From: Paenibacillus donghaensis
GTDB lineage: Bacteria > Bacillota > Bacilli > Paenibacillales > Paenibacillaceae
Length of the DNA stretch: 64,000 nt
Assembly: GCF_002192415.1 (NCBI RefSeq)
Contig: NZ_CP021780.1
Span: 5,332,001-5,396,000, forward strand
Direction: 5' to 3'
The notes below the pieces were generated by a model that worked only from the letters and a program-made list of their open reading frames with translations, was not told the DNA's origin and made no database searches. How positions within the stretch are numbered: the stretch's first letter is position 1; each line of letters starts with the position of its first letter. Both the position numbers and the translations under genes were made by a program. Below are positions 8,328 to 57,032 of the stretch, piece after piece.

Positions 8328-8382
8328 GCAAATGAAACTGTTTAAGTCCATGATAGTCTCTCATGTCCAGTTCACCGAAATA

Positions 8383-8569
8383 GATGCGAAAACGCACTTA
8401 ATTTCAACGAAAACGGCTGTTAGAAGGTAAATAAGTGCGAATATGCAACTAATTACGAGTAAATTGCTTGTTCAGCGCTCAGAATCAGAAATTAAGTGTA
8501 TTATGGCACTTATTTGCTTCAAAACGGGAAAAATCCGTGAATTAGATGCAGATTCGCAACTAATTTCGT
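8383..8569. repeat. Four-unit repeat array A
   Basis: Four related units start near 8383, 8427, 8488 and 8539. Units 1-2 read forward and units 3-4 read inverted: unit 2 has AAATAAGTGC..AT...CA..TAATT, and the reverse complement of unit 3 shows the same pattern. The spacer after unit 1 contains GAAAACGGCTGTT. The spacing and layout match arrays B, C and D although the unit sequence is different. This array and the neighbouring motifs fill the 519-bp gap between the desulfurase and the DUF523 gene; no gene is visible there. Confidence 0.65.
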
Positions 8570-8618: not shown

Positions 8619-8659
8619 CCTAAATAGTAACCAGTTTCGCATCTAACCTAAATAGTACC
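8619..8659 (+). repeat. CTAARTAGTAAC-type dispersed motif, two copies
   Basis: CCTAAATAGTAACCAGTTTC (8619-8638), continuing GCATCT, is followed by a shorter second copy, CCTAAATAGTACC (8647-8659). The second copy supplies the stop codon of the DUF523 gene on the other strand. The long copy closely matches the motif at 45730 and 56999. Confidence 0.6.
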
Positions 8660-33755: not shown

Positions 33756-33780
33756 ACCTGCACTTAAATTTCAGATTATT

Positions 33781-33961
33781 GCGGACTCAGGAGCCTCTAT
33801 TTGCTGAAAAAAGGCTGTTTTGCAGGTCTAACGGACTCAGGAGCCTCTATTCAGGCAAAAAACCACTAGTTAGGGCCTGTTTTTCCGATATAGAGGCTAT
33901 GCGGTCCGTTAGATTCCAAACCAGCGCAGAAATGAGGAAATAGGAGCTATACGGTCCGCTA
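33781..33961. repeat. Four-unit repeat array B
   Basis: Units start near 33781, 33831, 33888 and 33936. Units 1 and 2 both hold CGGACTCAGGAGCCTCTATT. Units 3 and 4 are inverted, with AGAGGCTATGCGGTCCGTTAG-type and AGGAGCTATACGGTCCGCTAG-type sequence. Spacer 1 holds GAAAAAAGGCTGTTTTGCAGG. This array, with the motif at 34014-34064, fills most of the gap between the SDR remnant and marR; I see no gene in it. Confidence 0.75.
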
Positions 33962-34013: not shown

Positions 34014-34064
34014 ATAACCTTCTCGAGTAACCTTCTATACCCTCGCAGGGTCCTAAGTAGTAAC
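34014..34064 (+). repeat. CTAAGTAGTAAC-type dispersed motif
   Basis: An AACCTTCTATACCCTCGCAG stretch, then GGTCCTAAGTAGTAAC. This lines up with 45682-45764 and 56960-57032, where CTATA, CTCGC.GG and CCTAAGTAGTAAC occur in the same order. Confidence 0.6.
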
Positions 34065-45378: not shown

Positions 45379-45681
45379 TTCCCTTTCTCCTCTCTTCAGC
45401 CAATCTGCAAGAAAAAAGAACTTGATTCGCTTCGCCCACCTCCCCAGGGTTTGGACTCGGCGAATTTCATAAAACAGACGCTTCACCTCACTTTCGGGAT
45501 CATTTGCAGGGTATGTGTCACCCTATGTCAAAATATACCATACTCAAATTAAAAATACTATAATTTTACAGTAAATAATCTATTAAATTTAGAAAGTTTT
45601 GTTAATTTCGAAAAAGACCGGCTCCTGCCTGTCTGCTCCTATACTTTCTGATTCCGTTGCTACTTAGGCCTCTACTTCCGT

Positions 45682-45844
45682 CCAATTAGCGGTATAAGTT
45701 CCCTATAGATTCTCGCTGGACCTAAAGTGGACTAAGTAGTAACAAGTTTCGTATCTATTTACTCAGAAATAGTTGCAGAATCGAGCACCCCGATAAGAGT
45801 TCCGGAGTACTATCCTCAACCCTCACGGGGACCTAAGTGGTAAC
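45682..45844 (+). repeat. CTAAGTAGTAAC-type dispersed motif, two tandem copies
   Basis: Copy 1 (45682-45764) runs CCAATTAGCGGTATAAG, CCCTATA, TCGCTGGACC, CTAAGTAGTAACAAG, TTTCGTATCTATTTACTC. Copy 2 (about 45781-45844) is looser: CCTCACGGGGACCTAAGTGG and then TAACC. Copy 1 lines up along about 75 bp with 56960-57032. A short extra TAAATAGTAACTC is at 46191. Confidence 0.6.
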
Positions 45845-45946
45845 CGAATCAATAAGGAAGGAACTCCACTGCAGCACCGCAGGCCTGCCAGCTTCCATCT
45901 CAACAGGACGTATATAGTCACCTCCTGCCCAAAATACCTGCAATTC

Positions 45947-46123
45947 TACAGTTTTTGTCGTGCAAAAACAGCCTTAGTGAACCCAAGCCTGCAAAAGTGC
46001 AGGAATTCACGCCCTCAGCACTGGTTAGCAGACCCAACTGCCGGAAAACCTGCACTATTACAGGAATTCAACGAATAAAGAAAAAAGGAGAGAAAGTCCC
46101 TGCACTATTGCAGGAATTTCTCT
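45947..46123. repeat. Four-unit repeat array C
   Basis: Units start near 45947, 45988, 46049 and 46099: CCTGCAATTCTACAG, CCTGCAAAAGTGCAGGAATTC, CCTGCACTATTACAGG and CCTGCACTATTGCAGG. Each is close to a palindrome around CCTGCA/TGCAGG. Units 3-4 fit units 1-2 best when inverted. Spacer 1 has GCAAAAACAGCCTTAG. Together with the motifs at 45682-45844 this fills the 847-bp gap between the cellulase promoter and rarA; no gene is visible. Confidence 0.65.
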
Positions 46124-56797: not shown

Positions 56798-56985
56798 GCT
56801 ATAGGGAAGATCTACCGTTAATTCCTAGCTAGTGTTCGGTTTTCATGACATATAGGGAAAAGTTACCACTATTTTGTCCTTCGAGGGCATTACTTAAGTG
56901 ATGGCACCTAATTAGCGGTAGAAAACTCCCCATAACCCCATCGAATCACCATTCTGAGACCAACTAGTGGTAGAATTCCCCTATA
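56798..56985. repeat. Four-unit repeat array D
   Basis: Units start near 56798, 56850, 56907 and 56961. Units 1-2 read CTATAGGGAAGATCTACCG and ATATAGGGAAAAGTTACCAC. Units 3-4 are inverted: TTAGCGGTAGAAAACTCCCC with ATA, and TAGTGGTAGAATTCCCCTATA-like. Unit 4 merges into the dispersed motif at 56960-57032. The gap from the hisS promoter to 57576 holds this array, the two dispersed motifs and two hairpins, and no clear gene. Confidence 0.7.
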
Positions 56986-57032
56986 CTTCTTCGCTGCACC
57001 CAAGTAGTAACCACTTTCGCATCTATTTGCTC
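56960..57032 (+). repeat. CTAAGTAGTAAC-type dispersed motif
   Basis: CCAACTAGTGGTAGAATTCC, CCTATACTTCTTCGCTGCACC, CAAGTAGTAACCACTTTCGC, ATCTATTTGCTC in order. It lines up along its full length with 45682-45764 and in part with 8619-8644 and 34014-34064. Confidence 0.65.

Follow-up and report, generated by a model that had tools for sequence, protein, structure and literature searches.

The genomes of the bacterium studied here and of its relatives contain hundreds of short non-coding elements in which four palindrome-like sites keep a fixed spacing while their sequences differ from one kind of element to another. Insertion junctions in this genome show that one kind of site, the A-type unit, receives an IS66-family transposon in its 6-bp loop.

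Four arrays with one geometry

The window, that is the whole stretch of 64,000 nucleotides that was analysed, covers positions 5,332,001-5,396,000 of one 8.54-Mb contig. All four arrays that the original prediction had placed in it are present, with unit coordinates rechecked and scores far above those of shuffled sequence:

Array A, 8381..8562, no strand: A-type units TAGATGC-N6-GCAACTA, score 104; U1 8381-8400, U2 8432-8451, U3 8493-8512, U4 8543-8562
Array B, 33779..33961, no strand: B-type units TAACGGAC-N6-GCCTCTATT, score 104; U1 33779-33801, U2 33829-33851, U3 33889-33911 (inverted), U4 33939-33961 (inverted)
Array C, 45937..46114, no strand: C-type units CCTGC-N6-GCAGG, score 103; U1 45937-45952, U2 45988-46003, U3 46049-46064, U4 46099-46114
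Array D, 56800..56985, no strand: D-type units TATAGGG-N6-TACCGCTA, score 95; U1 56800-56820, U2 56851-56871, U3 56913-56935 (inverted), U4 56965-56985 (inverted)

The score ignores the sequence of the unit, being the pairwise identity of U1, U2 and the reverse-complemented U3 and U4. Shuffled regions (60 dinucleotide-preserving shuffles each) reach at most 69, against 95-104 for the real arrays. Among 250 array-free intergenic windows, a set from which matches of at least 84 had been removed beforehand, the maximum was 74. Counted between the centres of the 6-bp loops, the steps are 51-61-50 in A, 50-61-50 in B, 51-61-50 in C and about 51-63-52 in D. A common spacing had thus been recognised correctly, but the figures first given for it (44-61-51, 50-57-48, 41-61-50 and 52-57-54) were off because the unit borders had been drawn unevenly. 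Arrays A, B and D follow the plan of two forward units and two inverted ones, and the units of array C are near-palindromic, as had also been stated. An A-run by GGCTGTT is indeed present in spacer 1, but without conservation in the A-type stack. According to a Pfam search the genes adjoining the window arrays are mutually unrelated: a class-V aminotransferase, a 2-thiouracil desulfurase, an NAD-binding protein, a MarR regulator, a glycosyl hydrolase 9, an MgsA-type ATPase, a histidyl-tRNA synthetase-like protein and one protein that has no Pfam match.

The same plan throughout the genome

The idea of one architecture with many sequences proved correct and general, with at least six unrelated unit sequences sharing the plan in this genome. 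A sequence-agnostic scan of 864 contiguous kb gave 71 matches scoring at least 84 (A 24, C 16, B 9, D 8, E 5, other 9), and these counts are non-independent, several C and other matches being tandem copies at one place. The nine others take in AGAGGC-N6-GCCTCT and some plain tandem repeats. Controls with shifted geometry gave 1 peak (+7) and 13 peaks (-7); a third, with a middle step of 42-48, gave 56 peaks and was set aside because palindromic units are comparable out of phase. By simple gene calling 69 of the 71 matches are intergenic. Tandem genes flank 40 of these, while 27 lie in convergent and 2 in divergent gaps, despite similar numbers of convergent (64) and divergent (65) gaps.

The A-type unit has the consensus TARNTGC-N6-GCANYTA. 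When loop lengths of 0-14 were tried in 464 kb, 48 matches had a loop of 6, one a loop of 7 and one a loop of 2, and the reversed sequence gave a single match (loop 13). Over 1.264 Mb, successive A units stood 50, 51 or 61 bp apart in 121 of 137 distances below 200, and unit-specific scans for five unit types gave steps mainly of 50/51 and 59-62. For B they are mainly 50 and 59 by pattern midpoints (the window array gives 61 instead of 59 between loop centres), for C 50 and 61, for D 50-51 and 60-62, and for E exclusively 51 and 62. Many single B matches are chance (187 against 86 in the reversed control). Quads outnumber pairs for A (31 vs 10), B (25 vs 1), D (10 vs 4) and E (6 vs 0), E arrays numbering 7, or 13 if both strands are counted. 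The strict C pattern yielded 11 pairs, 4 triples and no quad, and single units are numerous in the cluster count. A general palindrome autocorrelation (6-of-8 arm matches) gave a signal too weak to use.

Some places in the sampled stretches deserve separate mention. At L037:8733-8950 tandem units around TAAGGGATATATCCCATA, about 51-52 bp apart, represent a further unit type with the six-base loop ATATAT. C-type arrays at L019:12697-13850 lie within a tandem of repeats of about 324 bp, of which four copies scored. A plain minisatellite (CTAGGGCACA repeats) near an E-type array, at L009:15053, scores in the scan and is not an array.

The same plan in relatives

Searches for A-, B- and C-type pairs and for the terminal-repeat pair described below covered 200 genomes each, this one included. 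A-type pairs at 50-52 occurred in 6 of the 200 genomes, with 344 in this genome. B-type pairs were found in 30 of 200, nearly all at 49-52 among the matches listed; the control gave no matches, and the pairs of G026 and G049 resemble chance. C-type pairs, searched with a free gap of 20-50, occurred in 14 of 200 genomes, three genomes giving a single control match on each strand and the case in G036 looking like a coding repeat; all 75 plus-strand pairs among the matches listed have steps of 49-52 or 59-62. Quads scoring at least 78 were present in 37 of 46 loci and 35 of 43 genomes (G036 counted), against a shuffled maximum of 68, the 43 genomes having been chosen for a B or C pair and represented by one or two loci each. 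In these quads the outer steps are 49-52; for the middle step, values of 55-63 were obtained, varying with the phase of the window.

Among 84,980 species, 52 stretches contained a strict A-type pair at 51 bp, all of them from Paenibacillus or Cohnella, in a search that possibly leaves out this genome's own records. In the fetched stretches, same-orientation tandem A-type arrays reach up to 17 units, with a period of 51 in 253 of 291 steps; loop and spacer are alike inside one array and differ between arrays. A switch of orientation between units is accompanied by about 10 bp of extra step. One stretch from P. cellulosilyticus (L132:143-1000) holds 17 A-type tandem units at exactly 51 bp, with near-identical loops and slightly variable spacers. 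At L159, L162 and L166 (genomes G197, G078 and G028) the best quad near a B-type pair has another unit type; hence arrays of differing types can sit close together.

Within the A, B and E sets the pairwise identity is 0.72-0.85 for units, 0.41-0.67 for spacers and 0.25-0.30 for flanks, and in three further B arrays 0.67, 0.40 and 0.25; part of the difference between units and spacers is ascertainment because the arrays were located by their units.

Terminal repeats and short mobile elements

Three of the window arrays adjoin a terminal repeat:

8619..8631, plus strand: right terminal repeat CCTAAATAGTAAC, adjoining array A; left end unrecognised
34052..34064, plus strand: right terminal repeat CCTAAGTAGTAAC, adjoining array B; 420-bp class by its flanks; left end unrecognised
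56999..57011, plus strand: right terminal repeat CCCAAGTAGTAAC, adjoining array D
57012..57026, plus strand: CACTTTCGCATCTAT, resembling the right half of an A unit, immediately outside the end of the array-D element

With this apparent half unit directly outside its end, the array-D element has probably also inserted into an A-unit loop; its left side is unrecognised. Upstream of array C (45655-45844) there are three degenerate terminal-repeat-like sequences, at 45655 on the minus and at 45732 and 45833 on the plus strand, which are perhaps the remains of older elements.

The sequence CTAARTAGTAACC occurs 258 times in the genome (one control match) and makes up 32 inverted pairs with a span of 281-302 bp. 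The contiguous 864 kb had not been chosen for terminal repeats; there an end like GTTACTACTTAGG (at most 2 mismatches, within 130 bp of the array) lies near 11 of 24 A, 6 of 9 B and 6 of 8 D arrays, compared with 17 of 1500 dummies. For C, E and the other arrays the counts are 1 of 16, 1 of 5 and 0 of 9. The original prediction had offered a mobile mini-element as one explanation; this is supported for about half of the A and most of the B and D arrays of this contiguous part, and for the arrays bearing an end it is borne out by 8-bp duplications and a full-length IS66-family relative. Twenty further sampled stretches were chosen for holding a terminal repeat, and shares computed there are biased. 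Altogether 41 candidate short elements of 240-460 bp were collected, some having an end in common, and 20 show an 8-bp duplication matching in at least 7 of 8 positions. With the terminal repeats of the full-length IS66 element, no transposase gene and target duplications, these short elements are MITEs. The distance from element end to nearest unit (70-74, 81-84, 91-93 and others) indicates only a loose register. A search of 199 relatives for the terminal-repeat pair at 255-285 gave no match.

Insertion sites were compared in 24 short elements, with 23 different right ends among them, whose duplication matches at 6 or more of 8 positions. Once the element is removed, 18 of the 24 sites match an A unit with no more than 1 mismatch over its 10 fixed bases (random positions 0.0125%), and 21 of 24 do so with no more than 3 (random positions 0.36%). 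These 21 elements carry B (11), D (6) or A arrays (4). The strict fit was seen in 15 of 17 elements from stretches chosen for ends vs 3 of 7 in the contiguous 864 kb. None of the 24 insertions was seen in a C or E unit (3 outside A units, checked by eye).

Two genes within such elements were considered as mobiliser and rejected, being other insertion sequences inside short elements. One, a transposase gene that we take to be IS256-like, follows the first unit within a D-type short element (L039:9946-11672), the whole sitting in an A unit with the duplication CGAAAGTG. The other, presumably IS110-like, lies between two terminal repeats with B-type units beside it (L033:320-2512).

The full-length transposon and its homologues

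The first full-length copy came from a stretch showing terminal repeats about 1.7 kb apart. It measures 1603 bp, has an 8/8 duplication and contains one gene of 501 codons, whose product matches PF03050 (DDE_Tnp_IS66, E 1.9e-49) and PF13005 (zf-IS66), both over cut-off. An IS66-type DDE transposase, terminal inverted repeats and 8-bp duplications, the last typical of the family, place the element in IS66. This genome (G000) has three full-length copies of 1602-1627 bp, two with identical proteins and one at 86%, and one further remote match (26%). Each of the three copies is flanked by an 8/8 duplication and interrupts an A unit at the loop, and no units of type A, B or D were seen in their interior.

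Transposase homologues reaching an E value of 1e-60 or better are present in 9 genomes out of 200, counting this one, and 14 of the 16 foreign matches were looked at (L258 and L261 were left out). Genome G195, from another family, has seven copies of a homologue at 47% identity, which have the same left end. Five of the seven show 8/8 duplications, and each of these five sites differs from TAAGAGTC-N6-GACTCTTA by at most 2 mismatches. The sixth copy is bordered on either side by a unit half, with unequal flanks; in the seventh the right end was not recognised. With the element taken out, 3 of 6 copies reveal four units at 52-62-52 (at most 3 mismatches in 16), the outermost being the one hit. 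A search of G195 for H-type pairs with perfect arms found none. The G195 homologue also targets a palindrome loop within four-unit arrays, although the palindrome is another one. The copies in G070 (two), G067 and G165 have 8/8 duplications and no palindromic unit at the site by eye, and they count against the generality of palindrome targeting. In three other foreign copies no ends were resolved.

Discussion

We lean towards the explanation that the arrays are phased docking platforms for putative DNA-binding proteins and are also exploited by an IS66-family transposon. Each array would form a platform of about 185 bp on double-stranded DNA, in which four sequences of two half-sites (arm-N6-arm), two per orientation, lie about 5, 6 and 5 helical turns apart, and the bound dimers would sit on one face of the DNA, able to touch. 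The steps fall mainly at 49-52 and 59-63 and thus at whole helical turns, counted with an assumed value for the helical repeat; steps of 51 and 61, with the extra 10 at the switch of orientation, might fit whole turns together with polar protein contacts. A putative sequence-specific protein, different for each unit type, would read the arrays. They lie scattered as short elements through the intergenic DNA of this bacterial order, and in this genome the short elements with IS66 transposon ends carry A, B or D arrays. Possibly arrays were caught between two IS66-type ends and then spread as short elements. Such an end accompanies about half of the A arrays in the contiguous sample, so short copies carrying A arrays would, judging from their anatomy, bring new landing sites.

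It might be that the arrays are purely selfish mini-elements, the four units being sites for the mobilising enzyme (two per end, inverted) with no host role. Two inverted sites per end do resemble transposon ends, copies with common spacers are dispersed in G193, G189 and G038, and the excess of quads over pairs would fit. We nevertheless regard this as rather unlikely: no duplication was seen by eye beside bare arrays, half arrays are few, Y1 transposases gave no match in 6 of 9 array-rich genomes, and the full-length IS66 copies were not seen to contain A, B or D units.

A DNA cruciform had been among the original suggestions; in that case the units would act as DNA hairpins read by shape, and the transposon would target extruded loops. 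Most unit types are palindromes whose loop measures around 6 nt, and in two families whose unit sequences are unrelated it is the loop that receives the insertion. Furthermore, both arms of the A unit differ together between species, positions 3-4 being mostly GG in kobensis, cellulosilyticus and terricola, AC in terrigena and GA/GT/AG in this genome. Such joint change fits a dimeric protein or a hairpin alike. Within this genome the arms match in 6 of 68 A units vs 16.7 expected, which is below chance and speaks against a hairpin. Elsewhere the matches are about as expected in terrigena (43 vs 42.7), cellulosilyticus (17 vs 17.0) and terricola (20 vs 20.0) and lean above expectation in kobensis (13 vs 10.2), JJ-181 (3 vs 1.6) and sacheonensis (3 vs 1.8), in a test that has little power where one arm type dominates, as it does in the first three. 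Hairpins would also leave the helical-turn spacing without an evident role if they were independent of each other, the arms of B units match poorly, and the C and E units, which received none of the 24 insertions, are better palindromes than the A units that are hit. Altogether we judge cruciforms improbable.

The proposal of selection on a structured RNA, with a conserved fold and changing sequence, is hardly credible. Folded singly, the sequences do exceed mononucleotide shuffles in stability (z -2.2 to -6.2), a property of inverted repeats, and two-sided changes occur in a few alignment pairs (3 of 33 in A and, on one strand, 4 of 21 in E; both strands of the same arrays are included in the E and B stacks). 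Even so, the RNAalifold covariation terms on the A, B and E stacks are near zero (-0.2 to 0.4) and yield no compensatory changes in support of one fold, the predicted folds differ from type to type, and Rfam has no match in the window at gathering scores. On balance, sequence recognition on duplex DNA by protein is favoured over structured RNA because the steps are fixed near 5 and 6 helical turns and RNA covariation is close to zero.

Returning to the docking platforms, we tentatively raise the possibility that they form a hitherto undescribed class of bacterial chromosomal platform. Its phased geometry would be invariant and its sequences interchangeable, each read by a putative member of a DNA-binding family whose specificity diverges between species, and a transposon would exploit it while short derivatives seed further landing arrays. 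A geometry that is kept across an order while the recognition sequence is repeatedly replaced implies that a partner molecule has gone unseen, and with several unit types in a single genome this partner should be findable by pull-down. The transposon family would be one whose preferred targets are largely carried by its own short copies, and as such it might serve as a natural experiment on how mobile DNA avoids gene damage.

Comparison with known systems

Our literature searches returned no description of arrays with a fixed four-site geometry and interchangeable sequences. In behaviour, as targets of insertion sequences, the arrays are nearest to REP/BIME, yet they fail the test for a REP/RAYT origin, which we reject: no array units lie within 1.5 kb of the 5 Y1 matches in this genome, and most array-rich genomes lack Y1 matches, as noted above. 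IS1397 reportedly inserts in the loops of palindromic units. The accessible portions of PMC1525189 and PMC2817692 describe REP/BIME as intergenic, high-copy palindromic units in clusters, and REP-targeting insertion sequences as landing on the symmetry axis of the palindrome. The arrays described here are likewise intergenic, high-copy, palindromic, clustered and targeted by insertion sequences. Unlike REP/BIME as portrayed there, they have a fixed four-unit plan and wholly different unit sequences, and unlike the REP-targeting insertion sequences, the targeting element belongs to the IS66 family, a name absent from the accessible main text of PMC1525189.

MITEs such as ERIC and RUP are presented in the accessible part of a review (PMC10969869) as short, intergenic and equipped with terminal repeats and target duplications, and our short elements share all of these properties. 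They differ from ERIC and RUP, as far as that part describes them, in that they have as cargo a four-site array, which also occurs where these ends are absent, and that one set of ends carries A, B or D arrays. An IS66 MITE did not turn up in literature searches, and the term IS66 is absent from the accessible main text of the same review. The full-length element resembles the IS66 family in its DDE_Tnp_IS66 and zf-IS66 domains, its single transposase gene, its terminal inverted repeats and its 8-bp duplications. It differs in that it inserts into the loops of one array type and in that its ends are common to many short elements that carry arrays.
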